60,124 bases of DNA, taken from positions 1 through 60,124 of IMG/VR virus record IMGVR_UViG_3300043429_000521. One strand, given 5' to 3'. This DNA comes from a virus. Positions within the stretch are counted from its first letter, which is position 1, and every line of letters begins with the position of its first letter. The notes beneath the pieces were generated by a model. The model worked only from the letters and a program-made list of their open reading frames with translations. It searched no databases and had not been told where the DNA came from. The translations under genes were made by a program, and so were the position numbers. Positions 24,431-51,541 of this stretch are shown in pieces.

Positions 24431-25051
24431 ATGACAGAAAATTTCGATAGATTCATAAGAAAAATACTTGCAGAGTCGTTTGCTGAACTTCCTGATGAAT
24501 GCCCTTATGGATTTTGGGTAAGTCCTTCTGGCATTGTTCGGCCTGTTCGCTGGCAACAGCACGGCTCTGATGCAATAAGAATAATAAAAAGCATAGTTAA
24601 TTATACTACAGATTTCTATGAAAAGAATATATCAGACAAGACAGATCATTCTTCTGAAATGATTCTAGCGATTGGTTATCTCCTTAATAGGGGTTGGATT
24701 AAGATTAATAAAGATGTGACACAATATACACCACAACTAAAATATACTGCATCACAAAGTTTAACCGATAAACAGAAAAATGCATTGGGGGATTTAGAAA
24801 TGTTATATGACATTTCTGTAGTTCCTGAGAAGTTTTCACGGGATGCCAATTATGATCAACTATTTGCCGCAATAGGTGCGGAATTCGACAATCCAGCTAA
24901 ACCTCAGAGGAAACCTAAGAAAAAGAAGAACATAAAAGAAGATATATCTGTTGCATCTGTTCTGGGAAATGACGGTCTCTATGATACATCCGATGCACGG
25001 GTTCCTTATATTATAGGAAAAAGACGTAGAAAACGCAAAAAACGTTCATAA
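24431..25051 (+). CDS. Putative packaged head protein with capsid-targeting leader
   Basis: The 206-residue protein starts MTENFDRFIRKILAE then Ser, which fits a T4-type capsid-targeting sequence with a gp21-like cleavage site after Glu15 (L-x-E). The same 15-residue plan occurs at 36163 and 38687. The body has GFWVSPSGIVRPV near residue 30 and ends in a very basic tail (KRRRKRKKRS), suited to contact with packaged DNA. I start it at 24431 because of the leader and the late box just upstream; an ATG 33 bases earlier is in frame. The function of the body is unknown. Confidence 0.7.
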   Translation: MTENFDRFIRKILAESFAELPDECPYGFWVSPSGIVRPVRWQQHGSDAIRIIKSIVNYTTDFYEKNISDKTDHSSEMILAIGYLLNRGWIKINKDVTQYTPQLKYTASQSLTDKQKNALGDLEMLYDISVVPEKFSRDANYDQLFAAIGAEFDNPAKPQRKPKKKKNIKEDISVASVLGNDGLYDTSDARVPYIIGKRRRKRKKRS

Positions 25052-25054
25052 ATA
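25047..25054 (+). promoter_or_regulatory. Late promoter candidate CATAAATA
   Basis: CATAAATA (7 of 8 to TATAAATA) ends 6 bases before the ATG at 25061 and overlaps the stop of the preceding gene. The distance predicts transcription starting at the ATG. Confidence 0.6.
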
Positions 25055-25060
25055 AAGTTT

Positions 25061-25528
25061 ATGAACGAATGGGAAAATATTCCAGAAAATATAGATGATT
25101 ATTTAGGATTTGTATATCTTATAGAGATAGTAAATATTCCCGAGGATTATCCTAAAGATAAACCGACAAAATACTTAGGAAAGAAAATATTCTGGAGTAA
25201 TACTAAGTTAAAACCCCTTAAAGGTAAAACTCGTAGTCGTCGAGTAATGAAAGAATCTGATTGGAAAAAATACTATGGTAGTTCAAACGATTTGAAAGAG
25301 ATTCTTAAAAAATACGGTCCAGACATATTTAAACGTACAATTTTACATTGTTGTGAAACTAAATGGACGATGTCGTATATGGAAACCTTGGAACAAATGC
25401 GCCACGGAGTCTTATTCGATGATAGTTTCTTTAATGGTATAATCCACTTCCGTATTGGTAATTGTCCAAAGGATTTGCGGGAAAAATATAAGAAAATATC
25501 CCAAGAGATCTTCAAAGATATAAAATAA
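25061..25528 (+). CDS. GIY-YIG-like nuclease domain protein
   Basis: The 155-residue protein has GFVYLI (16-21) and KYLGKK (37-42), which fit the GIY and YIG positions of a divergent GIY-YIG nuclease, then ESDWKKYYGSS, a conserved Arg, and a Glu (YMETLEQM). As I recall, similar proteins lie next to terminase genes in T4-like phages. Here it is followed by a terminase-like gene. A role in DNA packaging or processing is inferred; a mobile endonuclease is the alternative. A late box precedes it. Confidence 0.65.
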   Translation: MNEWENIPENIDDYLGFVYLIEIVNIPEDYPKDKPTKYLGKKIFWSNTKLKPLKGKTRSRRVMKESDWKKYYGSSNDLKEILKKYGPDIFKRTILHCCETKWTMSYMETLEQMRHGVLFDDSFFNGIIHFRIGNCPKDLREKYKKISQEIFKDIK

Positions 25529-25531
25529 ATA
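25524..25531 (+). promoter_or_regulatory. Late promoter candidate AATAAATA
   Basis: AATAAATA (7 of 8 to TATAAATA) followed by CCC ends 5 bases before the ATG at 25537. It overlaps the stop codon of the GIY-YIG gene. Confidence 0.6.
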
Positions 25532-25536
25532 CCCAT

Positions 25537-26280
25537 ATGTCAGAAGAAATAGTATATCATGATGTAATTCGTTGGGCAGAAGAAAATATAAGGGTTTCTA
25601 CTTTTTATGAAGAATCGGCACCTATAAAACTATACACACGTCAAAAAGAGATACTAACTAGTTGGAATTCTAATAAAATAAATATACTGGTAGCAAGCAG
25701 ACAAGTCGGAACAACCACCATGATATTGATTGATGCGATTTATCATGCACTTAATTTTTCTGGCTGTAGTATATGTATAGTGTCCACTAAAGAAGCAATA
25801 TCAGATTATAATATAGAAAGAATCATAGACATTGCAAACTTAAAAGAAATTTTATGCCATAAAACTAAAAATAGAATAGCATTTTTAAATGGTTCAGAGA
25901 TAATATTTTTCGAATATTATACACGCGGAGTATGTGGTCGTTCGCTGAATCGCATATATCTAATGGATTATGACTATGCATCATATATATCACATAAAGA
26001 TGTTTTAAGCGCAATAATGCCTCTCATTTCTTCTAAGGCTTCTAATTCCTCTATTGTAATAGCAAGTTGTCCAAATCCTAAAATGGATGATAATGATTAC
26101 GGAATTTTACGGTTGTATGAAAATTCCGTAGAAGGTAAATACCATTACAATTATACTGTTGAAAAATTCTTTTGGAATCAAGTTCCTGATCGTGACGAAA
26201 AATGGAAAGAGCGAATGTTACAAGGTTTAGGTGCGGACAAAGAAGAGATTTTTAAGTATGAATTCAACTGTGGTGAGTAG
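25537..26280 (+). CDS. Terminase ATPase-domain paralogue with lost catalytic residues
   Basis: The 247-residue protein aligns by eye with the ATPase domain of T4 gp17 (610 residues) and has no nuclease domain. The Walker A reads SRQVGTTT (54-61) where gp17 has SRQLGKTT, so the essential Lys is Thr59. The Walker B IYLMDYDY has Met143 and Asp144 where gp17 has Asp and Glu. IVIASCPNP matches the coupling motif and WNQVPDRDEKW the region before the linker. It keeps the fold signature but should not hydrolyse ATP. Possible roles are a regulator or decoy of the real terminase, which lies outside the window. It ends with TAG. Confidence 0.8.
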   Translation: MSEEIVYHDVIRWAEENIRVSTFYEESAPIKLYTRQKEILTSWNSNKINILVASRQVGTTTMILIDAIYHALNFSGCSICIVSTKEAISDYNIERIIDIANLKEILCHKTKNRIAFLNGSEIIFFEYYTRGVCGRSLNRIYLMDYDYASYISHKDVLSAIMPLISSKASNSSIVIASCPNPKMDDNDYGILRLYENSVEGKYHYNYTVEKFFWNQVPDRDEKWKERMLQGLGADKEEIFKYEFNCGE

Positions 26281-26291
26281 TATATTAGGGT

Positions 26292-26771
26292 ATGACATAT
26301 ACCTTAATATCTATTGATGAAGTTCTCTTTAATATAGAAACAGATGTGGTAAATCTTCTCTATGATTACCATTTATTGAATAAATTCACTCCTGATGTTA
26401 AAAAAATAATCATGTATTTTTTTATACACGAATTTAATAACCGTATAAAAGATTCTTCTGTTCGATTCTACCACTCCCATGTTTTATCCGATTCTCATGA
26501 ATTGTTAAAATATTATGACCGGGATAAATTGGATAAGCATATTAATAAAATATGCCAGAAGCTAAAGAAACTCACGGGTAAATTGTTTTTTATAAAAAAT
26601 AATATTAAGGTTCCTTCTAAATCTTCCATAGATGGCTTGGATGGATGTATTGCTGATGAATTAATATTATCCGATTATTCTGAATCTATCGATCCCAGAA
26701 AGCTTAAAGAATTTCTTCATGATAATAATTTAGGAGATATGTTCTCAAATCTTTCTAAAAAACTTTATTAA
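26292..26771 (+). CDS. Protein of unknown function
   Basis: The 159-residue protein is mostly helical, with charged and hydrophobic residues alternating and many His and Lys. It follows the terminase-like gene after 11 bases and ends one base before the stop of the converging peptidase gene, without a terminator hairpin. No family is recognised. Confidence 0.65.
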   Translation: MTYTLISIDEVLFNIETDVVNLLYDYHLLNKFTPDVKKIIMYFFIHEFNNRIKDSSVRFYHSHVLSDSHELLKYYDRDKLDKHINKICQKLKKLTGKLFFIKNNIKVPSKSSIDGLDGCIADELILSDYSESIDPRKLKEFLHDNNLGDMFSNLSKKLY

Positions 26772-26772
26772 C

Positions 26773-27381
26773 TTATTCTAGAGACTTTTTAAGAAATGCC
26801 TCCGAAAACTCTACAGGGCAGTAGTCTAATTGATCCTCAGTTAAGTGTTCTTCAGGAATATATTGTACAACTTCTGGATCACTATATGATGCTGATACGA
26901 AGAATGTCCTAGATTTAACCATTATATTATGTGACATAATGTATCCATTGGATTCCTTTATATATGACGGTATATCAATAAGGAGATTGTTGTCTTTTAT
27001 ACATTGAATAGCTCTTTTATCACAATCTAATTCAAGCCTCTGGATATTTCGAATATCCTCTATATCTATTTCATTGGTCTTTTGTTGTAACCAATCATCA
27101 AATCTCTTATTGGATTTCTGTGCTATTTTCCATAGAGGAATCTTTTCTTGCCATTGTAAAAAATGGGAATATTCGTGGACGAATATTCCATAATTCTCCT
27201 CTAATGAGTCATTATAAAAATGAATCTTGAAAAGCGGAATAGGTCCATAATCTTTATGGGTTCCATCATAAAAAAAATTATAACCGAATTTTCCTACTCG
27301 CTTCCTTTTAGTAAACTCAACTGATACTCCTTCGGAAATCATTCTGCTTATTGCGTTTCCGATAAAAGTTTCCATTTTCAT
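26773..27381 (-). CDS. Putative zinc metallopeptidase (HExxH)
   Basis: The 202-residue protein has VHEYSHFLQW near residue 68, an HExxH zinc motif, and RLELDCDKRAIQ about 45 residues later, which can supply the third ligand Glu as in gluzincins. No signal peptide is seen. It follows directly after an OLD-like ATPase gene on the same strand. The pair may act together, but the target is unknown. Confidence 0.75.
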   Translation of the reverse strand: MKMETFIGNAISRMISEGVSVEFTKRKRVGKFGYNFFYDGTHKDYGPIPLFKIHFYNDSLEENYGIFVHEYSHFLQWQEKIPLWKIAQKSNKRFDDWLQQKTNEIDIEDIRNIQRLELDCDKRAIQCIKDNNLLIDIPSYIKESNGYIMSHNIMVKSRTFFVSASYSDPEVVQYIPEEHLTEDQLDYCPVEFSEAFLKKSLE

Positions 27382-27390
27382 AGAACCTAC

Positions 27391-28185
27391 TTACTTTTTA
27401 GAAAGTCCTTTTATCAAGTTTCGGCAGTCCTTTACATAACCAGGGCTGACATCTAGGATATTAACCTTTTTATATTCTAATATAAAAGGACTGTGGGTGG
27501 CAACTATAAGTTGAAAATGTTCCGATAACTTAACCAAAACGTCGAACAATTCTATCTGTTTAGGAATAGATAATGCCTTTTCTGGTTCGTCCAATAACAA
27601 TGTTATTTTTCCATCTCTAGGAAGAGATTGAATATAAGCCACTTCCAGCTTTGCCAATTCGCGCATCCTTGGATCAAGAATATTAGGAGGAATCACTTCA
27701 AGATTAGGAGGATATTGAATCACCTTCATAATCTTGTTTATCTTATGAATTCTATATTGTCCTGATGATGGTTTAGATGCAAGAATATCCATCTGTTCTG
27801 CTTCTGATGTGATTCCATCTGCTGACTGGCTAGCATTGCTAAAAAACCATGTATTATCGTTCTTACCCATTGCCTCTGAATCATTATAAAATGACGGGGT
27901 TCCATCCCACTCAACGCGGGCATCACACTGTCCAGGGGAATAATTCCTATAACATAATGGGAAGTGTTCAGGCTTATCGTATGCAAGTTTTGGAGGATCG
28001 GAGATCGTACTCCATCCTCCTACTTGGATACCGCAATATGCAGCCATAGTTTTCAATATAGTCGATTTACAACTACCGACATTTCCAAATAAAATATTCA
28101 GATTATCATTAAACTGAAACTTGCGATCTTTAAGATGAGGGAATCCAGTAGCGAATCCAGATAAGAATTGAAACGATTTAATCAT
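27391..28185 (-). CDS. ABC/OLD-like ATPase
   Basis: The 264-residue protein is a compact ABC-type ATPase of the AAA_15/OLD sort: Walker A GNVGSCKST (residues about 34-42, with Cys in place of the usual last Gly), Walker B LLLDEPEKAL and H-loop ATHSPF. A clear LSGGE signature is not seen, and there is no TOPRIM domain. Such ATPases often sense DNA ends in defence or repair. The HExxH peptidase gene is directly downstream. Confidence 0.75.
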   Translation of the reverse strand: MIKSFQFLSGFATGFPHLKDRKFQFNDNLNILFGNVGSCKSTILKTMAAYCGIQVGGWSTISDPPKLAYDKPEHFPLCYRNYSPGQCDARVEWDGTPSFYNDSEAMGKNDNTWFFSNASQSADGITSEAEQMDILASKPSSGQYRIHKINKIMKVIQYPPNLEVIPPNILDPRMRELAKLEVAYIQSLPRDGKITLLLDEPEKALSIPKQIELFDVLVKLSEHFQLIVATHSPFILEYKKVNILDVSPGYVKDCRNLIKGLSKK

Positions 28186-28222
28186 TCAACACACTTATAA
28201 AAATATATCTATTTTTCAAGTT

Positions 28223-28450
28223 TTATTTATAAAATACCACCTCTTCAATAAACTTCGGTTGGCTTCCATCACCCTCTAAAACAGAGAATACGATTGCAGA
28301 GTATTCTGAACGACCAACAAACTTCGCATCACCTATTTGATATAGGTTATGTGTCTTGTATAATGGTTCAGATTTATCTACTCTGAAATTATGATCAAGT
28401 GCCCATGTTAGTATGAGAGATGCTAATTTATTTTTAAATCTTTGAATCAT
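28223..28450 (-). CDS. Small protein of unknown function
   Basis: The 75-residue protein has a basic helical N-terminus and a beta-rich end (SAIVFSVLEGDG). The ATG at 28450 follows the upstream stop by one base (TAATATG), so I use it and not the longer frame. TATAAATA overlaps its stop codon but is 38 bases from the next ATG. Confidence 0.6.
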   Translation of the reverse strand: MIQRFKNKLASLILTWALDHNFRVDKSEPLYKTHNLYQIGDAKFVGRSEYSAIVFSVLEGDGSQPKFIEEVVFYK

Positions 28451-28451
28451 A

Positions 28452-29093
28452 TTAAAATCCTTCCAATTTAATACCATCAAAAACGGTATCTATATTCTGT
28501 GATATTTTTTCGTATGCAGATAGGTCTGTTGAGTTTTTCTTAACAACTGATTGCACCATATTCGCAAATTGATAGTAAGAAATAATATTCTCAAAACCTG
28601 TGATATTCATCGGATTACGTTCTTCAATGAAGAATGTTGTATGCTTTACATGATTTATCTGGTCCTTGATTCTAAAATCATCGCCATGATCGTTTATTGC
28701 AACAGTAAATGCATTACCATCCACAACAACGTCATAGTAGTGTATATCTGAACGGTTTATAGTTTGTTGAACGGTTGGTAACAGCCTAATCTCTGTATTT
28801 GCTATACTTGTAGATTCTCCTCCTACCCATTCACTTTTAAATTTCTCAGGAACATCTGCTATTAATGATGCTATATCACTTTCCAAGTTAGCATCTACAG
28901 AATTATACTGTTCTTCAAGATATTTAAGCTGATTCTCAATATATTCTTTTGCAGATACTTTATTTCCATCGTCATTAGAAAATGTCCCAAACAAAATAAA
29001 ATGTTTATGCAAATCCTCATCAGGTACATGAGACACACCTGCTTCTATTTTTAACTGGTTAGTCCAGTATTCTTTGTTAAATTGTGGTTTCAT
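28452..29093 (-). CDS. Protein of unknown function
   Basis: The 213-residue acidic protein has a helical first half and a beta-rich middle with HYYDVVVDGNAFTVAIND. I see no catalytic motif or membrane segment. It is flanked by small genes of the same operon. No family is recognised. Confidence 0.65.
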   Translation of the reverse strand: MKPQFNKEYWTNQLKIEAGVSHVPDEDLHKHFILFGTFSNDDGNKVSAKEYIENQLKYLEEQYNSVDANLESDIASLIADVPEKFKSEWVGGESTSIANTEIRLLPTVQQTINRSDIHYYDVVVDGNAFTVAINDHGDDFRIKDQINHVKHTTFFIEERNPMNITGFENIISYYQFANMVQSVVKKNSTDLSAYEKISQNIDTVFDGIKLEGF

Positions 29094-29101
29094 ATATTAT
29101 A

Positions 29102-29269
29102 TTATTCTGGTAACTGTATTTTTCGGATATTAATAGAAAGTTTATCGACATAGGTGAGGTTTTCTAAATACTCCCTAAGTACTTTCTCATCTTCATTTAG
29201 ATTTGTTTTATTCCAAATCTTAGAGTCATCATATCGAAAAAACCCTATATAATAGTCTTTAACTTGCAT
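29102..29269 (-). CDS. Small protein, 55 residues, unknown function
   Basis: A 55-codon frame fills the gap between Dda and the 213-residue gene. Its stop is 8 bases before the next ATG, and its codon choice resembles that of its neighbours. The product begins MQVKDYYIGFFRYDDSK and ends KIQLPE. The position and tight spacing support a real gene. No function can be proposed. Confidence 0.65.
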   Translation of the reverse strand: MQVKDYYIGFFRYDDSKIWNKTNLNEDEKVLREYLENLTYVDKLSINIRKIQLPE

Positions 29270-29310
29270 ATACACTATTTTAGTACATGGCTATCATATA
29301 TTCAACAGAA

Positions 29311-30642: not shown

Positions 30643-30649
30643 ATTTATT

Positions 30650-30934: not shown

Positions 30935-30964
30935 GTTCTACGATACATGCTAATGAATGCTCGT

Positions 30965-32877: not shown

Positions 32878-32880
32878 ATT

Positions 32881-34579: not shown

Positions 34580-34876
34580 TTATTTCTTTTCGTTCAATAA
34601 TTTGATTAAAATTTCCCCGTGGCATGGCTTCGGGCTGCACCAACAAAATAGATCAAGACCGTCCAATTCTTCTAAACTATCCCATAATTCAGGAGTATTT
34701 CGTATATAGGCTTCATAGGCTAACAAAACATTTTCCCTATCCCATTCAGTATCAGTTGTTATCACAAATGGGTTATGCCATTTTGAACAATGAAAATTAT
34801 ATGTTTTATTTTCTCTTCCTATATACAAACCAGTGGAAGAATTATAAGGATGTTTCTTAACATTTCTAATTTTCAT
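34580..34876 (-). CDS. DUF4326 protein
   Basis: The 98-residue protein fits DUF4326: LYIGREN near residue 17, KWHNPFVI, an LLAYEAYIR helix and LFCWCSPKPCHGEIL near the end, with conserved Cys and His. The function is unknown. In many phages it is found beside NADAR or SLOG genes, as here. It overlaps the NADAR gene by 4 bases. Confidence 0.8.
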   Translation of the reverse strand: MKIRNVKKHPYNSSTGLYIGRENKTYNFHCSKWHNPFVITTDTEWDRENVLLAYEAYIRNTPELWDSLEELDGLDLFCWCSPKPCHGEILIKLLNEKK

Positions 34877-35322
34877 TTCAATAATTGTTCAAATTTTAAA
34901 CTGTTCCTTATTTTCATTAAAAGTTTACCGAGTTCATTACGACCTTCCCCGGTTTCTATATCACACCCCCACCATAAATCATTCCAATTATTCCATTCAA
35001 CAATTTCTTCATCATTTGTGGCTAACAACTTTTGTCCCTGTTCAGTATCCAAACGAAATTTATGTCTGAGTGCTATTTCCATAATACGAAGTTTTTCTTC
35101 TTCGTCCCAATCTTCCCGTATAATATTTATAAATTTACGTATTTTTGTTTTTGCTTTTCTCGGTTCAAGTTCAGAGATATACAAACGGGATATATAATCG
35201 TCATGAGGTAATTTCATTGCTTGATAGAAATTCTCTGGTGCATAGTAAACTATATCCTCGTATTTTAGAGGATCATCAAACGGTATCATATTACTGAACC
35301 AATTTTTGTGCCATTCTTTCAT
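34873..35322 (-). CDS. NADAR (YbiA-like) N-glycosidase
   Basis: The 149-residue protein matches NADAR: FSNMIPFDDP, ENFYQAMK, RLYISELEPRKAK, IREDWDEEEKLRIMEIALRH, a conserved LLAT-N-D-E, VEWN and NELGKLLMKIR. Members cut N-glycosidic bonds of riboflavin intermediates, and some remove ADP-ribose from guanine in DNA and so counter DarT-type toxins. A second NADAR gene lies at 55082. An anti-defence role is plausible but inferred. Confidence 0.85.
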   Translation of the reverse strand: MKEWHKNWFSNMIPFDDPLKYEDIVYYAPENFYQAMKLPHDDYISRLYISELEPRKAKTKIRKFINIIREDWDEEEKLRIMEIALRHKFRLDTEQGQKLLATNDEEIVEWNNWNDLWWGCDIETGEGRNELGKLLMKIRNSLKFEQLLK

Positions 35323-36111: not shown

Positions 36112-36149
36112 TAGTTTAAACAAAGGATGTTTACAATGCAAGTGAATTC

Positions 36150-36157
36150 GATAAATA
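36150..36157 (+). promoter_or_regulatory. Late promoter candidate GATAAATA
   Basis: GATAAATA (7 of 8 to TATAAATA) followed by TTTTA ends 5 bases before the ATG at 36163. It predicts a leaderless late mRNA that begins exactly with the capsid-targeting leader. Confidence 0.55.
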
Positions 36158-36162
36158 TTTTA

Positions 36163-38685
36163 ATGAATTTCAAAGATTTTGTTAAAAATAAATTAGTTTT
36201 ACAGGAGGTGTCTTATAATGTGGCAAATAAAATTCCTGCTTTTTTGCAAGGCGTGGCACCGTTTGATCATATATTTGGTGATAAAAAACGTATAGTTGAA
36301 CCTATGAAAAAGGTATCCGAATATCATGATAAAATACGCAATAGCATAATAGAGGATTATGAATTGGATTTTGAAAAATGGATAGGATATAAAATAACTG
36401 ATAAGGATAAGAAAAACCCAATACGAATTGGAAAGTTACTAAGTCAGAGAAAGCAGGCTATAGAGAGATATATTAAAGATGCTACGAATAAATCCGAAAT
36501 AGACAATTATACCATTTTAGGTTTCCAGAATCAGTTAGGAAATATTGATAAATTGTTGAAAGTTACGAATTTACAACAAGCATATTTGGATGCACAAAAG
36601 AGTTCATATTATGTTATATATTCCAGAATGCCTATAGATGTTGTACGAATGAGTGACCATCAATGGACTTCGTGCCATTCAGAAGGAAATGATTATTTTT
36701 ACTGTGCTCTTGCAGATGCTAGTTTAAATGCTGGAATTGCATATGTAGTAACAGAGGAAGATTTACAAAAAATCGATGATTTACAAAAAGATGAAATTTT
36801 TAAAGATTCTGCCAGAGGTATAGACGGTATAATTCCACAAGCTCGTATAAGAATAAGAAGTGTTTATGATGAAGATGGAAACTCTTTAGCAGTTCCGTCA
36901 TTGAAGGTTTATAAAAATAATAAATTTACAATGGCTGAAGATTTTAAAACCCAAGTCATAGATTGGGCGAAGCGCCAAGACACCTCAAATATAGATTGGG
37001 AAAATACTTTAACTCTTCGGGGAGGTTCGTACGAGGATTGGGGTACTGAAATAGATAAAACCATTAAGGATATTTGGGGTAAAGATATATCATACGAACA
37101 TAACAAAGAAGATGAGAGTGATTGGGAAGACGATGTAAGGGGAAGTTATGAACAACAAGAAGAACATTGGTGGGATGAACAGCGGGATGAGTTCAATCCT
37201 GATCCTATCTATGAATACGTATTTGGTTTAGATTCTTTTGGGGATTACTTTGATATAGAATACGATATTAACGGATCGGATTTAAAATTAGCATATATCA
37301 TTCCAGGTAATATTTTAGAAAAAATAAAAAGCTCTCCAAAGTGGGGGTCTGTGGAAATTAAAAAATCGTTACCTACTAGATATGGCTGGGAAAGAGAAGA
37401 CACATTATATGCTAGCATAGGAGAAGATGATAAACTCCACTTTGTTATTGATAAACACTTTAGTGCTCACGATTATGGTGAATATTATGGTCCAGAAGAT
37501 GGTGGACATTTTCGTGACGAGAAATTACGAAGTGATGTACAAGATTATTTTGTTAAAATATTGACTAATTTTGTAGCGGAGGCTTATATGGATGAAGAAG
37601 TCGGATTTACAGAGCTTCGAATGCTTATGAATAAGACTATCTGTGATTTTTATGATGTGGAATACGAAAAGGCCGCACAAGAAGAAGTCGAAGATTTACA
37701 GACATTTGTTGAGAAAAAAGGAAATACAGAAGATGAATTAGGACAATTCATTATTCCTTCGTTTGTTCCACAGATAGAAGCTGGATATGGCGGATATGTT
37801 AGAGAATTGGTCGGTCCTATGGAACAAATCAATAACATAGTTTCTCTAACTTATGAAATTTACGATAAGCTAGGTAGATTCGTAGAAAAGAAATACGAGC
37901 TACCAGATGATATTTCTTTTGATTTATTTTCTCTTTCTATATGTGTGCCTGAGCAAATGACTCCTCGAAAATTTGGAGGGACGGCAGGTGTTGGCGGTTT
38001 CTGGTTTAGAAATGAGAGTACAAAAAGCAGAAAGCCTGTATTAAAAATAGATATTTCAATAAATCAAGAAACTTTAGATTATATAATAGATCATGGAATA
38101 ATATCATCTTCTACTAAGGCACTCATCGATTTACGTGATCAATTCGAACACGAATATCTAGAAGGTGTCAAAACTATATTTGATTTAGAAGATATATTGA
38201 ATAAGTTGATACCGCCTTCTGATTATGAAGATTTAAAAAAACAAGGTCAAATGGAATTGGATTTATCTAGTATAAATAGAGATATGACAACTAAGTTTGA
38301 TGCATTTATTAAGAAGATATTCCAAGAAGGATTGGGCAATATGGGACAAGGGGGCCTCTCTCAACGAGGAGGTGCAGGAACTTCACCTTCAGCAAATTCA
38401 TCTTCTACGGCACCTAAAAAGGTCGCAGGAGGTGTGCAAATGCAATTCTCTAAAGGACCGACCGCATCCAAAACTCCTACTGGAACTTCTAGTCAACCTC
38501 TCGATTACGGGGCTATTTTAAATGATCCGACTGCATTCGAGTTATTTCAATCCGACCCTAACAATATAGAAGGATTTAGGCAACATATGGCAGATCCTAA
38601 AAATTTTAAAAATCTTGAACAATCTATCAAAGATCCGAAGGCATGGACAACGGTTGCACAATTATTAGCATCTCCACAACAATAA
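36163..38685 (+). CDS. Large putative packaged virion protein with capsid-targeting leader
   Basis: The 840-residue protein starts MNFKDFVKNKLVLQE, a T4-type capsid leader with a likely cut after Glu15. The N-terminal domain has MSDHQWTSCHSEGNDYF near residue 165 and then IAYVV, a segment I recall from uncharacterised proteins of large phages. The middle is acidic, and the end (about 720-770) is a Gly/Ser/Thr/Pro-rich linker followed by a short helical domain. In-frame ATGs at 36127 and 36136 exist, the latter with AAAGGA 8 bases upstream, but the leader and late box favour 36163. It may be an internal head or ejected protein. Confidence 0.7.
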   Translation: MNFKDFVKNKLVLQEVSYNVANKIPAFLQGVAPFDHIFGDKKRIVEPMKKVSEYHDKIRNSIIEDYELDFEKWIGYKITDKDKKNPIRIGKLLSQRKQAIERYIKDATNKSEIDNYTILGFQNQLGNIDKLLKVTNLQQAYLDAQKSSYYVIYSRMPIDVVRMSDHQWTSCHSEGNDYFYCALADASLNAGIAYVVTEEDLQKIDDLQKDEIFKDSARGIDGIIPQARIRIRSVYDEDGNSLAVPSLKVYKNNKFTMAEDFKTQVIDWAKRQDTSNIDWENTLTLRGGSYEDWGTEIDKTIKDIWGKDISYEHNKEDESDWEDDVRGSYEQQEEHWWDEQRDEFNPDPIYEYVFGLDSFGDYFDIEYDINGSDLKLAYIIPGNILEKIKSSPKWGSVEIKKSLPTRYGWEREDTLYASIGEDDKLHFVIDKHFSAHDYGEYYGPEDGGHFRDEKLRSDVQDYFVKILTNFVAEAYMDEEVGFTELRMLMNKTICDFYDVEYEKAAQEEVEDLQTFVEKKGNTEDELGQFIIPSFVPQIEAGYGGYVRELVGPMEQINNIVSLTYEIYDKLGRFVEKKYELPDDISFDLFSLSICVPEQMTPRKFGGTAGVGGFWFRNESTKSRKPVLKIDISINQETLDYIIDHGIISSSTKALIDLRDQFEHEYLEGVKTIFDLEDILNKLIPPSDYEDLKKQGQMELDLSSINRDMTTKFDAFIKKIFQEGLGNMGQGGLSQRGGAGTSPSANSSSTAPKKVAGGVQMQFSKGPTASKTPTGTSSQPLDYGAILNDPTAFELFQSDPNNIEGFRQHMADPKNFKNLEQSIKDPKAWTTVAQLLASPQQ

Positions 38686-38686: not shown

Positions 38687-39388
38687 ATGATCTCAGAATT
38701 CGACAAATATATATATAATCTTATCATAGAGGCAGGTCCACCAAAACCTCCTACAGATGATGAAGAACAAACTGGCTCGCCTGAAGAGTCTTCTGCTGGG
38801 CCTATGGACTCTCCTGGGGATAATCCTGACGATCTCTCCGGGGATATAGAAGAACCAATGCCTACCATGCCAGAAAAGCCTGTATTCCCAGAGGAGATGG
38901 AACTTGCTAAATTGGCTATTCGTGCATTATATTTCAATAAAGATTCTAAAGATGTTCATAATCTCAAACTTCGTGTAGATAAAAGAGAGATACCATTTGA
39001 AATGATTGCAGATTATTTCGAAAAGACTAAAAAGATTTTACCTATTTTAGGCTTTGTCGAATGGGTGATGGATAAATATGAAGGACTTGCTAGTAAATGG
39101 ACAGAACAGCCTAAAATCAAAGGAAAGTCTATAAAAGATAAAATTAAATATTTTAATTCTCTTCCTGAAGAAGAACGTCTGGATAACGGCAAGCGAGTAT
39201 ATTGGGTGCGTATAATTATAAATGCGCTGTTATACGGCTCACCCAGTATGAACATAAATATTGCAGATGTTAATGATCAAAATATTGTAGAAGTGTTTAG
39301 ATTATTGAAACAACACTTTGGTAGAGATACTAGAGGTTTAGTCAGCCCTTCTGTAGAAAACAATTTAGAAGGTCCAGGAGTTTTTTAA
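38687..39388 (+). CDS. Putative packaged head protein with capsid-targeting leader
   Basis: The 233-residue protein starts MISEFDKYIYNLIIE then Ala, the same plan as at 24431 and 36163, with a likely cut after Glu15. Residues 16-65 are a Pro/Glu/Asp/Ser-rich linker and the rest is a helical domain ending LEGPGVF. It follows the 840-residue gene by one base and is probably co-transcribed from its late promoter. The body is not recognised. Confidence 0.7.
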   Translation: MISEFDKYIYNLIIEAGPPKPPTDDEEQTGSPEESSAGPMDSPGDNPDDLSGDIEEPMPTMPEKPVFPEEMELAKLAIRALYFNKDSKDVHNLKLRVDKREIPFEMIADYFEKTKKILPILGFVEWVMDKYEGLASKWTEQPKIKGKSIKDKIKYFNSLPEEERLDNGKRVYWVRIIINALLYGSPSMNINIADVNDQNIVEVFRLLKQHFGRDTRGLVSPSVENNLEGPGVF

Positions 39389-42960: not shown

Positions 42961-42961
42961 T

Positions 42962-43368: not shown

Positions 43369-43370
43369 TT

Positions 43371-43634: not shown

Positions 43635-43635
43635 G

Positions 43636-43869: not shown

Positions 43870-43870
43870 C

Positions 43871-43899: not shown

Positions 43900-43913
43900 A
43901 AAGCCTCATTTAT

Positions 43914-45932: not shown

Positions 45933-45935
45933 TTT

Positions 45936-46394
45936 ATGAATGATGGAGTGATAAAAAGTAACATGGATACTATTAAGCATATCCATGTTGTTAGGGGAAA
46001 TATTTACAAGTTTATCTCTGAGTTAGATAAACGAGCAAGAGAGCACGACCAGTCTAAACTGGAATCACCAGAGCAAGAGATTTTCGGGGAAACCCACGAA
46101 GAACTTGCAAAGGTAGAGTATGGTTCTGATGAATATAAGAAATTATTAGAACGAGTCAAACCTGCAATTGACCACCACTATGCCAACAATCGACATCATC
46201 CAGAATTTCATAAAAACGGAATAGATGATATGAATTTAGTGGATTTGTTAGAAATGCTGGCAGATTGGAAAGCTGCAACTTCGCGGAATAAAAACGGTAA
46301 CATCAGAAAATCTATCGAGATAAATGCGGAGAGATTTAATATGTCACCACAACTAGTGAAGATTTTCGAAAATACTGTAAAGGAATACTTCTAA
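45936..46394 (+). CDS. DUF5662-like protein
   Basis: The 152-residue protein has HIHVVRGNIYKFI, REHDQSKLESPE, and a His-rich IDHHYANNRHHPEFH followed by NLVDLLEMLADWKAA. This matches DUF5662 as I recall it. The conserved His and Asp residues suggest a metal-dependent hydrolase of HD type, but activity is unknown. It follows the vWA gene after three bases and probably shares its transcript. Confidence 0.75.
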   Translation: MNDGVIKSNMDTIKHIHVVRGNIYKFISELDKRAREHDQSKLESPEQEIFGETHEELAKVEYGSDEYKKLLERVKPAIDHHYANNRHHPEFHKNGIDDMNLVDLLEMLADWKAATSRNKNGNIRKSIEINAERFNMSPQLVKIFENTVKEYF

Positions 46395-46397
46395 TTT

Positions 46398-46649
46398 ATG
46401 AGAAAATATTTTTTATTTGATTTGACTGATAACTGGTGCCGAATAATAACGGCAGAGAATGAAGTTGAAGCTGTTGCAAGTATTCTCTCAAATGAGAAGA
46501 ATTGTTTTGGTTGGAGTGTGGACGATTTTCCAGATGGAATTTCGTACATGGACATGGCAGAATATATAGTCGGTCAAATACTAGATTCGCGTGACTTTGA
46601 TTGTTATATATTCGATATAACTGATGAGAAGAATGTCGAAGTTTTATGA
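46398..46649 (+). CDS. Small protein of unknown function
   Basis: The 83-residue acidic protein begins MRKYFLFDLTDNWCRIITAE. It resembles no family I know. The stop overlaps the next ATG as ATGA, so it is coupled to a tiny membrane protein. Confidence 0.65.
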   Translation: MRKYFLFDLTDNWCRIITAENEVEAVASILSNEKNCFGWSVDDFPDGISYMDMAEYIVGQILDSRDFDCYIFDITDEKNVEVL

Positions 46650-46756
46650 ATATTATCAATTATATATCCATTGCAGTTGTAGCATTCTGTATGTGGTATA
46701 TAGTTGAAATAATTTTAGAGTTGATAGATGAGTTGATAGATGAGTTGATGAAATAA
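46646..46756 (+). CDS. Tiny single-span membrane protein (36 residues)
   Basis: The frame starts in an ATGA overlap with the preceding gene and stops one base before the next ATG, so its borders fit a real gene. The product has one hydrophobic stretch (about residues 3-24) and an acidic repeat at its end (ELIDELIDEL) encoded by a 12-base tandem repeat (46718-46741). It could affect the inner membrane, as small phage proteins often do. Confidence 0.6.
   Translation: MNIINYISIAVVAFCMWYIVEIILELIDELIDELMK
46718..46750 (+). repeat. 12-bp tandem repeat in the tiny membrane protein gene
   Basis: Two exact 12-base units (46718-46729, 46730-46741) are followed by 8 bases of a third. Each unit encodes ELID, extending the acidic tail without a frameshift. 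Confidence 0.8.
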
Positions 46757-46757
46757 A

Positions 46758-47111
46758 ATGGCGAGAAGATATAAACAAAAGGGATATATAGGTGTAGATT
46801 TTGATAAAACTCTTGCTACATATGAAAAATGGGTTTCCCCTTCTACATTAGGGGAACCTATTCCTGAAATGGTGGAACGTGTTAAGAAGTGGTTATCTGA
46901 GGGCAAGCTCGTTAAGATTTTCACTGCAAGAGTCGCACCAGATCATCCTATAAATGAACAAGTTGAAGCAGAGCAAGCTATTAAAATGTGGTGTAAGAAA
47001 CACTTAGGCCAAGAACTTGAAGTTACTTGTATAAAATATTCTGCAATGTATGAATTTTGGGACGATAGAGCGGTTGCGGTAGAGCCTAATACCGGAAAGA
47101 GATTAACATAA
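46758..47111 (+). CDS. HAD-superfamily phosphatase-like protein
   Basis: The 117-residue protein has GVDFDKTLA (D-x-D-x-T, nucleophile Asp), VKIFTARV as motif II, and FWDDRAVAV as motif IV. This is a small capless HAD hydrolase such as those that dephosphorylate nucleotides or nucleic acid ends. It starts two bases after the tiny membrane gene. The substrate is not known. Confidence 0.83.
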   Translation: MARRYKQKGYIGVDFDKTLATYEKWVSPSTLGEPIPEMVERVKKWLSEGKLVKIFTARVAPDHPINEQVEAEQAIKMWCKKHLGQELEVTCIKYSAMYEFWDDRAVAVEPNTGKRLT

Positions 47112-47112
47112 T

Positions 47113-47598
47113 ATGGAAGAGGACTATAAAATTTATATACTTTTCAATAAAGTATCAAAGCAGATGACCGCATTCATGACGGATGTATCTCAAATTCCCG
47201 AACAAATACGTAAGAGTCTTTTGATTAAAGAGTTTAAACTTAAAGATTTAGGATTTGATGATGATGAAATTAATCTGACTCGTTTTAAATGGGAAGGTGA
47301 TTATGACACCGGAAGACTAATAGATATTGTCAAAGAGAAGAAGGCAATAGTTACTGAAAAAGAAACTAATGAGCGTTTTCATGACATGTTTTGGAAACGT
47401 TATAATATTTACGAAGTTCTTCAAGAACTTATCATTAATACTCCGATGATCACCGAAAAGGGGCAGAATATGCAAGACTTTTTAAAAAAGGTGTTGCAGA
47501 AAAAAGAAGCCGATGTAAAGTTCTATCAGAACTCGCCGTTACATATATGGGAGTCTGAGGAAGAGACAGTTAAAAGGCAGAAAGATGCATTTAAATAA
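47113..47598 (+). CDS. Protein of unknown function
   Basis: The 161-residue charged protein begins MEEDYKIYILFNKVSKQMTA. It has no motif I know. It overlaps the following phosphoesterase gene by 14 bases and follows the HAD gene by one base. Confidence 0.62.
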   Translation: MEEDYKIYILFNKVSKQMTAFMTDVSQIPEQIRKSLLIKEFKLKDLGFDDDEINLTRFKWEGDYDTGRLIDIVKEKKAIVTEKETNERFHDMFWKRYNIYEVLQELIINTPMITEKGQNMQDFLKKVLQKKEADVKFYQNSPLHIWESEEETVKRQKDAFK

Positions 47599-48382
47599 TA
47601 TCAAACAGTATAACAAAAAGAATGTTTACGCTCTCGGAGACACCCATTCTCTCGATTTCGAGAGTTTGATAAAGCATTATAATTTAAAAGATTTTGTTCT
47701 TATTCATTGTGGTGATGCGGGAGAAGGATTTAATCAGCGATTTATAGATGAATTTGATCTAGATTGTTTAGAGAAATACTGTGAAGAGAACGATGGAGAT
47801 ATTTTAATAGTAAGAGGGAATCATTCTAATCCATCTTTTTATAAACCAAATCATTGGACTGCGAAATACAAAAGAATTACATTTGTTCCCGATTACACCT
47901 ACTATGAAATAAATGGTAAGGTTGTATTATTTGTCGGAGGTGCTACTTCTATTGACAGGACTCGGCGGGATGTAAATCAGGATTATTGGGTGGACGAAAC
48001 GTTCATTCTTCGAGATGACTATGAAACACTACCACAAGCTGATATACTTGTAACACATTCCTGCCCAACTGAAGCACCACCAAATGACGGATTCTCTAAT
48101 ATTGCATGGTATCTGAAGAATGATCCTGCATTGAGAGAAGATTTAATAAAAGAGCGGAAAAATATAAGTCTTCTATATAACCATATAAATCCATCTATTT
48201 TATGGCACGGACACTTTCACGTATCTACATCTACATACATCAACGGAACATGGTTCAGATGTTTCGACATCAATGAACTTGTGGATGTTACTCCCGATCC
48301 ACTGAGTAGGATAAGTTCTTTTGAAAATTCTGCTGTGGTAGAAGATTCGGAGTTGATGGAAATAGAAAAAGACCAGGATTAG
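47585..48382 (+). CDS. Calcineurin-like metallophosphoesterase
   Basis: The 265-residue protein has the motif series GDTHS, CGDAG, RGNHSN, THSCP and HGHFH, complete for a dinuclear metal site. Such enzymes cut phosphodiesters or phosphomonoesters. It is the third stand-alone phosphoesterase in the window besides gp47 (others at 39433 and 57387). A terminator 120 bases downstream ends the operon. Confidence 0.82.
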   Translation: MHLNNIKQYNKKNVYALGDTHSLDFESLIKHYNLKDFVLIHCGDAGEGFNQRFIDEFDLDCLEKYCEENDGDILIVRGNHSNPSFYKPNHWTAKYKRITFVPDYTYYEINGKVVLFVGGATSIDRTRRDVNQDYWVDETFILRDDYETLPQADILVTHSCPTEAPPNDGFSNIAWYLKNDPALREDLIKERKNISLLYNHINPSILWHGHFHVSTSTYINGTWFRCFDINELVDVTPDPLSRISSFENSAVVEDSELMEIEKDQD

Positions 48383-48509
48383 ATTTTGGTTTAACTTCTA
48401 GGGGATATTTATCAATGGAATGATTTACAACAGACCAACAGCCATGTATCCATACAGATGCGACAATTGCTAGACTGAAATAAAGAACAGAACGAGGTAG
48501 AAAAGACAT
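48288..48509 (-). CDS. Possible small secreted or membrane protein, opposite strand
   Basis: A 73-codon frame on the - strand begins inside the terminator stem and overlaps the phosphoesterase gene by 95 bases. The product would start with a signal-like segment (MSFLPRSVLYFSLAIVAS) and has HGC near residue 24, a poor lipobox. It fills a 118-base stretch that otherwise has no gene. The overlap and lack of promoter make it doubtful. Confidence 0.25.
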   Translation of the reverse strand: MSFLPRSVLYFSLAIVASVWIHGCWSVVNHSIDKYPLEVKPKSNPGLFLFPSTPNLLPQQNFQKNLSYSVDRE

Positions 48510-48535
48510 AACTATGTTATTTAGTTATGTCTTTT
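48501..48535 (+). terminator. Intrinsic terminator
   Basis: A perfect 14-bp stem (48501-48514 with 48522-48535) around a 7-base loop is followed by T. The A-rich 5' side may let it work on both strands. It ends the vWA/HAD/phosphoesterase operon just before the late promoter of the lysozyme cassette. The ATG inside the stem (48527) is therefore not likely to be used. Confidence 0.88.
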
Positions 48536-48540
48536 TTGTT

Positions 48541-48548
48541 TGTAAATA
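48541..48548 (+). promoter_or_regulatory. Late promoter TGTAAATA(GTATT)
   Basis: TGTAAATAGTATT matches the 13-base T4 late consensus TATAAATACTATT at 11 positions. It ends 5 bases before the ATG at 48554 and directly follows a terminator, so it should control the effector cassette up to 51541. Confidence 0.72.
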
Positions 48549-48553
48549 GTATT

Positions 48554-49387
48554 ATGAAATTTAATGAGCTTTATAATATACTAACTGATATGAGTGATTC
48601 AGATATTATAGAAGAGTCGGTTTTAAGTTATCTACAGAATCCTAGAAGTCTTATTGCAATGGCTCTTTTGCTAGGTGTGACGCATTATAACTATACAATA
48701 CCGAAGCTCCGAGAGATAGTAACACAGAAGGCTAAAGAGACTCCTCCACAGACCTTACAAGCGATTCAACAAGAGGTTCCGAAGAAGATGGCTACGCCAT
48801 TGGTGGATGCTCTTATTAAACAAATTAGTAAAATAGAGTTTCCAAAAGCGGCAACCAAACAAGAAACACCTTTGACAGATAAATTTATTCAAGATTTATC
48901 TACTATAAAATATCCAGAAAAAATAAAAACGGATGATTTTATCAGCGATGCCTTTAAATATATAAAGAAGCATGAAGGTGTCTATAATACCATGTACAAA
49001 GATATATATGGTAATTTAACTATAGGCATTGGCCATCTCGTAAAGCCTGAAGAAGTGGAGAAGTTTGAAGGAAAAACCTTAACTGATTCTGAAATAGAAG
49101 ATATATTTAGGGTCGATATAAAGAATAAATTAGCACTTATCCAGAGACATTTCGGTGCAGATTTTAATAAATTTTCTAAAAATATGAAAATAGCTATTCT
49201 TGATGGTTATTTCCGAGGGGATTTATCAGGTTCTCCGAAGGCACGACTCTTGCTAAAGAGTCGTAAATTCCCAGAGGCAGCAAAAGAATACCTTGCGAAT
49301 AAGGAATACGAAAAAGCTAAAAAAGCTAAAAGCGGAGTTGCATCCCGTATGGAAAATAATGCAAGAATATTTGCAAGTGGGGGATAA
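48554..49387 (+). CDS. T4-lysozyme-like GH24 muramidase with capsid-targeting leader
   Basis: The 277-residue protein starts MKFNELYNILTDMSD and reaches a gp21-like site (I-x-E, Glu21 before Ser). A hydrophobic stretch follows (LIAMALLLGV, about 31-40), then a linker, then a GH24 domain from about residue 135: KKHEG with the catalytic Glu, YKDIYGNLTIGIGH with the Asp and Thr. The leader plus late promoter suggest packaging in the head and delivery with DNA, unlike an ordinary endolysin. A lysis role is the alternative. Confidence 0.82.
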   Translation: MKFNELYNILTDMSDSDIIEESVLSYLQNPRSLIAMALLLGVTHYNYTIPKLREIVTQKAKETPPQTLQAIQQEVPKKMATPLVDALIKQISKIEFPKAATKQETPLTDKFIQDLSTIKYPEKIKTDDFISDAFKYIKKHEGVYNTMYKDIYGNLTIGIGHLVKPEEVEKFEGKTLTDSEIEDIFRVDIKNKLALIQRHFGADFNKFSKNMKIAILDGYFRGDLSGSPKARLLLKSRKFPEAAKEYLANKEYEKAKKAKSGVASRMENNARIFASGG

Positions 49388-49389
49388 TT

Positions 49390-49782
49390 ATGAAACTACA
49401 AGAACTGTTTGATTTAATCAATATACCGATAACTATAAAGGAAGAAACCATAGATAAAATGGAGTTTTTTCATATAACTAGACATGAAAATCTTCCAAGT
49501 ATTATGAGAAAGGGGCTGGTTCCAGCAATAGGGGAGCGTTCCAACAAAATAGGAGAAGACCGAGATGCTATATATCTTTTCGAGGATAAAGATACGGCAG
49601 AGGATGCACTTATGAACTGGTTAGGAGATGAATATGATGAAGATGAGTCGCTAACTATGTTAAAGGTGGCTATTCCTGTGAATAGTATGAATATATATAA
49701 TATAGTATTCGATGGATTTAGTTATGTAGCATTCAAAGCCATACCACCAGAGTATATATCCGTAGAAGAAGAGATTTTATGA
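49390..49782 (+). CDS. Small ADP-ribosyltransferase-like protein with capsid-targeting leader
   Basis: The 130-residue protein starts MKLQELFDLINIPITIKE, a capsid leader (I-x-E, Glu18). The body fits the ART fold of the diphtheria-toxin/Tpt1 sort: FFHITRHENLPSIMRKGL with His28, AIYLF with Tyr62, and AIPPEYI with Glu121. Such enzymes move ADP-ribose from NAD to proteins, RNA or DNA. It may be an injected modifier like T4 Alt, though not homologous to it by eye. It overlaps the next gene by 4 bases. Confidence 0.68.
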   Translation: MKLQELFDLINIPITIKEETIDKMEFFHITRHENLPSIMRKGLVPAIGERSNKIGEDRDAIYLFEDKDTAEDALMNWLGDEYDEDESLTMLKVAIPVNSMNIYNIVFDGFSYVAFKAIPPEYISVEEEIL

Positions 49783-51002
49783 AACTACAAGAATTATTAC
49801 AATCATTGATTCGTTTGGATATCATAAAAGAGGCCAAACTTCCGGCTGAATCATATGAAAATGGATTTAATATTATTAGTAAGAAGCTTAAAGAGATAGG
49901 CGCATTGACTCAACAATTCATACAGAAGATTCTCCAAGAAGAAGATTTTATTTCTAATGATATCGATGCATTGGATATTGATTCATATTTTATAAAGTCT
50001 GTCAAGGAACTTCATAACAGAATGTTCGAAGATAATATATATAGAACGGTATTCAGTAAAGAGCTTGCTAACTATGATAATTATCTAAAGATGGCTAGAG
50101 AATCTACTGATGGAAATTTTAGATATAGGCTTATATCGGAATATATACCGAATATCCTAAGAGATATAATAGATGTATTGGACAAAGAAAAAAGTAACTA
50201 TTCATTAAGAAATATAATAAACAATATAACTGAATTTGAGAATCGTGCTGTTGGTTATGGATTTACTGCTGAAGAATTGGATCGTCTCCTTCCTATATTC
50301 GCTATAATAAAGGAAGTAGTAAATAAAACAGAAGAGGTTAAGGAATTCGTAGAACGTATAAATACTCTAACCAAATGGAATAGAGGTGAATATTACGATT
50401 CAAGAAACTTCCGCCCCGAAGATCTACAAGAAGAAGAAATTGCCTACCATGCATCTATAGATATAAAAAATATATTTCAAAATGGTTTTCAAAAAGAATA
50501 TACAAAAACGGATAAAGGAGGCTTGGGTGGAGCATCTTATAAAGGAGATATAAGCTTCTCTCTGTCTTTACATATTTGCCAATCGATAATGATTGCACTG
50601 AAGCATATGTGGCTTATTGCGAATGGAAAATATAGAATGGATAAACTCATAGATTATATTAAAAAGTATTCTGCTAACACTGAAACGTCGAATTTTGAGA
50701 ATACTGTAAAACAGTATAAAAGGCGTAAGGGTAGCGAGTTTCCTCCGAAAAGTTCCGCAGATGCTATTGAGTTTTATTTAACTGCACTGTGGTATATGGA
50801 TTCTCCAGTCTATCGAAACCCTGTGTTTATGGACACACAAGGAGATAAGTGGGTTGAAAAGCTTTCTAAGATAGATTACAGTGATATAGGAATTGTAGAA
50901 GCTCGTATAAAAACTACGAATGCTTCCGAATTCCTCGTAGCCGAGCGGGAAATTCGCATACCACCCGAAGATGTTATAGAAATGAAAAGAATTATACAAT
51001 GA
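49779..51002 (+). CDS. Larger ADP-ribosyltransferase-like protein with capsid-targeting leader
   Basis: The 407-residue protein starts MKLQELLQSLIRLDIIKE then Ala, nearly the same leader as the preceding gene. Residues 20-200 are helical and unknown. From about 218 an ART-like domain follows: IAYHASIDIKNIFQNGF with His224, GGLGGASYKGDISFS, and EREIRIPPEDVI near the end with Glu391. It shares the H...IPPE plan with its neighbour but is not a simple duplicate. It overlaps the next gene by 4 bases. Confidence 0.65.
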   Translation: MKLQELLQSLIRLDIIKEAKLPAESYENGFNIISKKLKEIGALTQQFIQKILQEEDFISNDIDALDIDSYFIKSVKELHNRMFEDNIYRTVFSKELANYDNYLKMARESTDGNFRYRLISEYIPNILRDIIDVLDKEKSNYSLRNIINNITEFENRAVGYGFTAEELDRLLPIFAIIKEVVNKTEEVKEFVERINTLTKWNRGEYYDSRNFRPEDLQEEEIAYHASIDIKNIFQNGFQKEYTKTDKGGLGGASYKGDISFSLSLHICQSIMIALKHMWLIANGKYRMDKLIDYIKKYSANTETSNFENTVKQYKRRKGSEFPPKSSADAIEFYLTALWYMDSPVYRNPVFMDTQGDKWVEKLSKIDYSDIGIVEARIKTTNASEFLVAEREIRIPPEDVIEMKRIIQ

Positions 51003-51541
51003 AATTAGATGAACTATATAAAATAATAGAAGAGGGTTCTGCAATAAGAAGTTGGTCATGCCTCATGCTAGACATGTCTTTCTTATCGGAAGAGATGACA
51101 GAGCTTCACGAAGCCATATGTCCGTGTGATGTATATGACGACGAACCAGGACACGGTATCGAATTGGAAACACATGGAACTGTGATCTACGGTATCGATC
51201 CGAGTTATAAACCGCATGATGTCTATAATGCAATAAATTTACGACCTTGCAGATTTAAATTTAAGGGTATCTCTTTATTCGAAAATGAGAAATTTGATGT
51301 TGTGAAGTTTGATATACTTTCTAAGGATTTGCACGATTTACATCAAGAAGTGAAAACCGAACTAGATTGTCCTGGAAACTCCTATCCGAACTACCAACCA
51401 CATACGACAATTTTTTATGCAAAAAAAGGAACTGGAAAATATTATACAAATCTGGAAACCGATTTAATCGGAAAATCCTTTACTTCTAATAAATTTATAT
51501 TTTCCAATCCCTACTCTGAGAAAGTGATTTGGACTGTTTAG
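50999..51541 (+). CDS. 2H phosphoesterase-like protein with capsid-targeting leader
   Basis: The 180-residue protein starts MKLDELYKIIEE then Gly, the shortest leader of the set (Glu12). The body has two H-x-T motifs, ETHGTVIYG (His59, Thr61) and QPHTTIFYA (His135, Thr137), 76 residues apart, which is the hallmark of 2H phosphoesterases. Members cut cyclic nucleotides or RNA 2',3'-ends; Acb1 of T4 breaks CBASS signals. If packaged, it could act at the moment of entry. It is the last gene of the cassette and its stop overlaps the end of a - strand gene by 4 bases. Confidence 0.7.
   Translation: MKLDELYKIIEEGSAIRSWSCLMLDMSFLSEEMTELHEAICPCDVYDDEPGHGIELETHGTVIYGIDPSYKPHDVYNAINLRPCRFKFKGISLFENEKFDVVKFDILSKDLHDLHQEVKTELDCPGNSYPNYQPHTTIFYAKKGTGKYYTNLETDLIGKSFTSNKFIFSNPYSEKVIWTV

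Follow-up and report, generated by a model that had tools for sequence, protein, structure and literature searches.

The head cargo known from phage T4 consists of Alt together with a few small internal proteins acting as inhibitors of restriction enzymes (PMC9026906, PMC3012670), and the propeptides of T4, as described in PMC9026906, measure 10-19 residues and end in L/I-x-E; IPI, along with Ip2 and Ip3 (PMC12373910), provides a T4-type precedent for an anti-defence role. For phiKZ and SPN3US, the descriptions of inner-body and ejection proteins in PMC9026906 and PMC5694885 tell of head proteins that are cut after Glu by a relative of gp21 and are then ejected, with S/A-x-E as the phiKZ motif and with several SPN3US propeptides of more than 100 residues. 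Here we describe seven genes with short N-terminal leaders of a T4-like kind in the IMG/VR virus record IMGVR_UViG_3300043429_000521, the whole of which (60,124 bases of a T4-like phage) is called the window below. We consider it probable, at roughly 0.8, that these leaders are T4-type capsid-targeting propeptides on varied, modular cargo that is packaged, cut and ejected with the DNA; packaging and cutting are proposed from the T4 precedent, and we infer ejection and the function of the cargo.

All seven reading frames and leaders were located at the positions that an earlier note on this DNA had given, and each of the seven proteins begins with a propeptide-like segment ending in [IL]-x-E, with the Glu at residues 12-21. 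The Glu is residue 15 in exactly three leaders, as claimed: those of 24431-25051 (+), encoding 206 residues with a YGFW motif and a basic C-terminus (leader MTENFDRFIRKILAE, 24431-24475), of 36163-38685 (+), encoding a large protein of 840 residues (leader MNFKDFVKNKLVLQE, 36163-36207), and of 38687-39388 (+), encoding 233 residues (leader MISEFDKYIYNLIIE, 38687-38731). The last leader Glu is residue 20/21 in 48554-49387 (+), a predicted GH24 lysozyme of 277 residues whose leader runs up to IIEE (48554-48616) with a hydrophobic stretch next; residue 18 both in 49390-49782 (+), a predicted ADP-ribosyltransferase (ART)-fold protein of 130 residues resembling the Tpt1/KptA C-lobe (leader MKLQELFDLINIPITIKE, 49390-49443), and in 49779-51002 (+), 407 residues and possibly ART-like by eye (leader MKLQELLQSLIRLDIIKE, 49779-49832); and residue 12 in 50999-51541 (+), a 2H phosphoesterase with both HxT motifs (leader MKLDELYKIIEE, 50999-51034). 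The residues that follow the Glu are S, V, A, S, E, A and G, so that the description "mostly Ser, Ala or Gly" holds for five of the seven. The claim that the bodies differ completely is generally uncontradicted, except that 49390 may be ART-like and so, judged by eye only, may 49779.

The likeness to the T4 cargo with capsid-targeting sequences (IPI-III and Alt; PMC9026906, PMC3012670) lies in the short propeptide ending in L/I-x-E, the unrelated bodies and the presence of an ADP-ribosyltransferase in the cargo. The differences are the other leader sequences and bodies found here, which include a 2H phosphoesterase and a lysozyme (and, in a relative, a CCA-transferase and a NUDIX protein), the far larger number of tagged genes in some relatives, and a protease that was not found on this phage's fragments. 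As in phiKZ and SPN3US, cutting after Glu and ejection are predicted here, but the leaders end in [IL]xE after 12-21 residues. ART domains are shared with the injected polyvalent proteins described in PMC7824862, which differ in being large and multidomain; the same source assigns the 2H, Nudix, Macro and NADAR proteins of jumbo phages to the countering of nucleotide signals and to RNA repair, and these resemble the present enzymes as tools of counter-defence or RNA repair. A word search of its main text finds neither "capsid targeting" nor "leader", and no description of a capsid-targeting leader on a 2H phosphoesterase appeared in the literature searched by titles, abstract starts and passages (PMC9391042 included) rather than full texts.

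Because the bare motif is common, the seven leaders alone prove little, and it is the comparison with relatives that decides. Below, G labels denote viral records or contigs, and L labels denote loci read in such records. About 98 kb of this phage are covered by the window together with G001, a contig of 90 kb from the same phage (about 34 kb of it beyond the window), and G030, a 38-kb contig whose DNA polymerase is identical (adding about 4 kb). Megablast of window positions 20000-44000 against 50,697 phage records gave no match; relatives are represented by a 75-kb contig (G002; UvsW identity 62%) and, more distantly, by G005 (51.6 kb; 2H protein identity 42%), which encodes gp21, gp23 and a gp22 scaffold candidate assigned by position.

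Homologues of the 2H phosphoesterase occur at 37 loci in viral contigs, one of them this phage, and a fixed rule finds the leader in 34 of the 36 others, with 25 distinct N-terminal segments among them; L026 and L030 are the two loci that misfit the core anchor of the rule. Glu12 is kept in at least 90% of 23 aligned sequences. On bacterial genome contigs, two of four homologues carry the leader, in neighbourhoods that are phage-like by eye, and the other two are domains within large proteins. Conservation extends to other cargo families: G002 has leader-bearing counterparts of 36163, 38687 (leader MKSEFESYIHRILFE), 48554 and 50999, and also of two further leader genes of G001 (83109-83546 and 85470-86123). 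Within the 36163 family, by eye, [IL]xE stands at the same place in six of seven members (the window, G002, G036, G040, G041 and G042) and is MxE in G005; G039 and G043, which matched like G040, were left unread, and eight of the 14 records searched gave no member. The 840-residue protein of this family also has a second, internal leader-like site (MTTKFDAFIKKIFQE, 38284-38328 (+), residues 708-722) ahead of a Gly/Ser-rich linker, and the site recurs in the G002 counterpart before a low-complexity linker. Genes at the same place as 48554 in G002, L005 and L006 have [VIL]EE, and leader-like N-termini are present by eye on 7 of 10 genes at 423-7860 of L079, a locus with a leader-bearing homologue of 49390. 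The G002 counterpart of 24431 retains the leader and C-terminal tail in 61 residues, the body being gone; this loss, together with the unrelatedness of the bodies, indicates that the cargo is modular. A single-sequence scan with 49779 returned matches from the same phage only.

The same kind of leader is found beside gp21 in relatives. Presence of a gp21-like protease had been proposed as a check, and an S77 protease was found in 6 of 14 and in 10 of 22 records with homologues (over the cut-off in 7 of the 22), but not on this phage's own contigs, all of which are fragments. Six records (G006, G009, G010, G011, G012 and G026) hold both a leader-bearing 2H gene and the surroundings of gp21, and in each the 15-20 genes within 13.7-18 kb around gp21 were scored against the record's own 2H leader. 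The best regional match was the gene directly before gp21 in G006, G009, G012 and G026. In G010 it lay between gp21 and gp23; in G011 it lay 3.6 kb ahead of gp21, and the runner-up between gp21 and gp23. Each of the six best scores exceeded every score from interior methionines of the region, though a regional test places its top match near gp21 by construction, and it was repeated over whole records, read in 20-kb pieces, which misses genes cut by piece ends. There the near-gp21 genes ranked 2/221 (G006), 22/272 (G009), 17/323 (G012), 11/91 (G026), 3/377 (G010) and 1/360 (G011), and those of G009, G011, G012 and G026 beat every interior-methionine score. Genes above every control numbered 12 in G026, 22 in G012 and 29 in G009; those outranking the near-gp21 gene in these three records are other tagged genes, and most of the tagged genes printed begin with a segment like M-K-H-I-K-L-[FY]-E-[EQ]-F-x-x-E, with bodies unlike by eye. 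Similarity between 2H leader and head leader averaged 31.8 within a record, 29.9 between records of one clade and 12.9 between clades, and the observed sum was reached in 10 of 720 permutations; the six records amount to about three lineages and are therefore not six independent events.

The predicted folds leave the leaders outside the folded bodies of both modelled proteins, most of each body lying well above a predicted local distance difference test score (pLDDT) of 50. The AlphaFold2 model of the 2H protein (23 sequences) has a mean pLDDT of 89.7, with residues 1-13 below 50 and a helix predicted at residues 3-11, and it matches 2H folds of the PDB from residue 14-18 on (CPDase, Z 14.1; Usb1, Z 13.6; LigT, Z 12.9; Acb1, Z 12.4). 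H59/T61 and H135/T137 are invariant in all 23 aligned sequences, and the family profile finds Acb1 as its best PDB sequence (E 0.0025), with a LigT-like protein at E 0.0056. By sequence and model, 50999 is a predicted member of the 2H phosphoesterase superfamily of the Acb1/LigT type. It shares with Acb1, a nuclease that counters the cyclic-oligonucleotide-based antiphage signalling system (CBASS), the 2H fold, both HxT motifs and that best profile match, and differs in a Pfam Acb1 score (18.5 bits) below the cut-off of 27, in a structural match that scores close to those with CPDase, Usb1 and LigT, and in the presence of a leader. For 49390, the model (4 sequences) reaches a middling pLDDT of 73.5, with residues 1-9/11-19 below 50, and the body has an ART fold (Foldseek PDB E 5.4e-4; Z 10.4, root-mean-square deviation 2.9, 89 aligned); it fits only the C-terminal lobe of Tpt1/KptA (residues 91-181 of 8tg4), the N-terminal lobe being absent, a modelled likeness that implies no activity. 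The lysozyme matches Pfam Phage_lysozyme (2.1e-7, 31.7 bits against a cut-off of 22.3), with E, D and T residues recognised by eye. Neither 36163 nor 38687 has a family over the cut-off, the 36163 family has no PDB sequence match at E up to 0.1, the best PDB matches of 49779 reach only E 0.08, and PADLOC on the seven proteins gave only weak hits to DarT (0.005) and LmuC (0.013). Leader-bearing proteins of G005 include one of CCA/poly(A)-polymerase type (3.2e-24) and a NUDIX protein (1.4e-9). The earlier view that the delivered set includes enzymes thus stands for a predicted 2H phosphoesterase, an ART-fold protein and a GH24 lysozyme, but the role of "effector" is a proposal for every one of the cargo proteins.

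Late promoters immediately upstream of three of the genes had been noted, and this was borne out in modified form: a core nTAAATA lies 14 nt ahead of the ATG at 24431 (24417-24423, +) and 12 nt ahead of those at 36163 (36151-36157, +) and 48554 (48542-48548, +), but the exact T4 late box TATAAATA, present 11 times in the window against 14 expected, is found immediately upstream of none of the seven. The first gene of every leader cluster in the window has this core 12-14 nt upstream, and the other four leader genes lie downstream on the same strand. In the window, G001, G002 and G005, nTAAATA, a motif substituted for TATAAATA post hoc after inspection of the upstream stretches, occurs 12, 13 and 14 nt before an ATG in 35, 21 and 10 cases, respectively, where the background at 20-79 nt averages 0.7 per distance; no such peak in spacing was present in six other T4-like head regions. 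The starts at 24431, 36163 and 48554 are internal ATGs of longer open reading frames (ORFs; 24398-25051, 36127-38685 and 48527-49387), and their choice is supported by the position of the core between the first ATG of the ORF and the internal one. Since a late box in T4 precedes the transcription start by roughly one turn of the helix (PMC2988020), a spacing of 12-14 nt would give mRNAs with almost no 5' untranslated region, and late mRNAs in this phage clade should be (near-)leaderless.

For capsid targeting speak the conservation of the leaders in relatives, their sharing with genes beside gp21, their position outside the folded domain, the late promoters and, in G005, the presence of gp21 together with a gp23 that contains WCIEE-AG in its N-terminal region, but a number of observations weigh against it. 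No gp21/S77 protease was found in the window, G001 or G030, and these contigs of about 98 kb hold no head module. One refuting outcome named in the earlier note, the same bodies without leaders in related phages, is partly borne out for the 2H body: among seven phage-collection records read (of 13 with 2H matches, six further Maribacter records being left out), the leader is present in two, there is no recognisable leader on the 2H genes of Molly_1, Colly_1 and LR756504, and those of LR756511 and LR756508 lack the anchor and are leaderless by eye. All five leaderless records match S77 (four above the cut-off, of which two only just), and L026, whose 2H gene also has no recognisable leader, has S77 in its record; against these stand the 34 of 36 viral-contig homologues that keep it. 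In both L077 and L080, the homologue of 49390 is an internal domain of a larger protein that has no leader of such kind, and the leader of the 24431 counterpart in G002 ends in FLED instead of IxE, a change that recalls T4 IPIII with Asp at the cut position, which is targeted and uncut (PMC9026906). In the whole-record control, the near-gp21 gene tied with the highest interior-methionine score in G010 and fell below it in G006 (23 versus 27). The own 2H leader of G005 found a 36163-family leader gene as top match of the head region by a marginal 23 against a null maximum of 22, and its best match over the whole record was 25 against a null of 26; G034, scored with the leader of G005 only, gave nothing above the null maximum. 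Lastly, window leaders exceeded the null maximum against G005 N-termini in only two of seven cases, 24431 (25 versus 21, with the gp22 scaffold candidate as its best match) and 49779 (23 versus 21), and the bare motif, as set out next, is widespread.

That last point is the substance of the view that chance explains the leaders, AT-rich phage genes commonly having short amphipathic N-termini with [IL]xE, of which seven were picked. Of the 93 window genes, 21 have [LI]xE at residues 10-22 (the seven, and 14 of the remaining 86), as do 42 of 288 interior-methionine stretches, so the motif as such can hardly count as evidence. A Glu-anchored profile built from 21 2H leaders places 4 of 91 window genes at p<0.01 and, of the seven, only 49779; as a classifier it is weak, and other genes score equally high. 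When the seven are instead ranked by similarity to G002 leaders with their own family excluded, they take ranks 1, 2, 3, 4, 7, 12 and 29 of 93 (Mann-Whitney p = 3.8e-5, with reference leaders picked by eye), and leaders are conserved while bodies diverge. With the tag also common to genes beside gp21 and to 12-29 genes per record in three relatives, chance was already disfavoured, and we regard it as very improbable. Hardly better placed is the idea that the N-termini serve another localisation in the cell, such as tethering to a membrane or replication compartment, with the Glu incidental: the 2H protein's predicted helix (residues 3-11) and the hydrophobic stretch seen by eye behind the lysozyme leader would suit it, but the Glu is conserved and the same tag stands on the gene beside gp21, and we think this very unlikely.

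The leaders might also send proteins to the head as structural or core parts, like gp67/gp68 or inner-shell proteins, rather than as ejected effectors. Genes for gp67 and gp68 adjoin gp21 in T4. A leader protein likewise adjoins gp21 in four relatives and, judging from its position, would be a core protein, as gp67 and gp68 are (PMC9026906); 36163 and 38687 have no family over the cut-off, 36163 has no PDB match, and its protein carries, within the chain, a second site that is conserved. Yet catalytic motifs are kept in the 2H protein and, by eye, in the lysozyme, and G005 has leaders on a CCA-transferase and a NUDIX protein, enzymes that make poor sense as scaffold, which leaves this possibility on the unlikely side. 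Less probable still is that the 2H protein is produced within the cell, as an enzyme of RNA repair or of Acb1-like kind, its leader a leftover in some lineages, as the leaderless homologues of Molly_1, Colly_1, LR756511, LR756504 and LR756508 could suggest. An AAA_33 kinase gene lies 170 bases away in the window, look-alikes by eye adjoin the 2H gene in L003 (G002), L004, L005 and L006, and the window encodes an RNA ligase; the 25 distinct leader-bearing segments in 34 contigs, however, argue for maintenance of the leader.

Several further features were recorded. An eighth, weak candidate on the minus strand (26773-27381) has a leader-like MKMETFIGNAISRMISE and a body with HEYSH, and may be further cargo, but neither the leader-similarity ranking nor the late-promoter scan supports it as a member. 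In relatives, runs of short genes with a common MKHIKLFEEF-x-x-E-type tag occur at 66248-69808 of G009 (L221-L230) and 193196-199513 of G012 (L198-L210), the L079 cluster includes an 834-residue protein with no Pfam match, and 49390-type ART-like domains lie inside proteins of L077 (3065-4534) and L080 (3065-5047) that start nucleotidyltransferase-like by eye. In G005, the gp21 gene (16387-18156, L058/L060) seems split by an in-frame intein-like insert, with two S77 pieces in one ORF of 589 residues; L101 holds a close relative in a version of 223 residues. No obvious leader is seen on the window's two NADAR domains, its macro domain, its AAA_33 kinase or its RNA ligase; the NADAR and macro domains, an ADP-ribose-processing set, lie at 34873-35322 (-), 55082-55780 (-) and 59417-59881 (+) (NADAR, 2.8e-21 and 1.1e-43; macro, 1.4e-6). 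A 95-residue ORF at 20391-20678 (-) ends in a stretch of the gp23 major-capsid family (PF07068, E 3.8e-7), which resembles the T4 Gol region, and may be a small capsid-mimic gene; a similar ORF is at 25232-25549 of G002. Within 25061-26280 (+), a terminase-large fragment (25537-26280; phrog_5989, 3.3e-10) adjoins a separate ORF; by eye, G002 joins the two in one protein of 384 residues, and a 570-residue protein of G030 (L180:602-2314) may be the full terminase.

If the leaders are capsid-targeting propeptides, the proteins would be made from late promoters late in infection, and their leaders would bind the growing prohead core, where the phage's gp21-type protease would cut after [IL]-x-Glu. 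The cut proteins would remain inside the head alongside the DNA and be ejected with it into the host. There, the likely job of the cargo would be help in the first minutes, in removing the cyclic phosphates or cyclic nucleotides that host defence produces, in modifying a host target and in aiding entry, and some of it may form part of a nucleotide-signal and RNA-repair kit carried in the head. Tentatively, many uncultured T4-type heads might carry a large delivered kit of up to dozens of proteins with lineage-specific tags, consisting partly of signal-clearing and RNA-end-repair enzymes (2H phosphoesterase, Tpt1-like ART, CCA-adding enzyme, NUDIX) that act before phage transcription.

New here are the enzymes among the cargo, the extent to which the tag has spread, and its occurrence in relatives, both on a gene beside gp21 and on many others. 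If the proposal is true, distant T4-type phages use this delivery route for enzymes directed against nucleotide signals and broken RNA, and the tag together with the gene beside gp21 would offer a simple listing of the injected cargo of a genome (12 to 29 genes in three relatives), by which many hypothetical proteins would become testable virion proteins.

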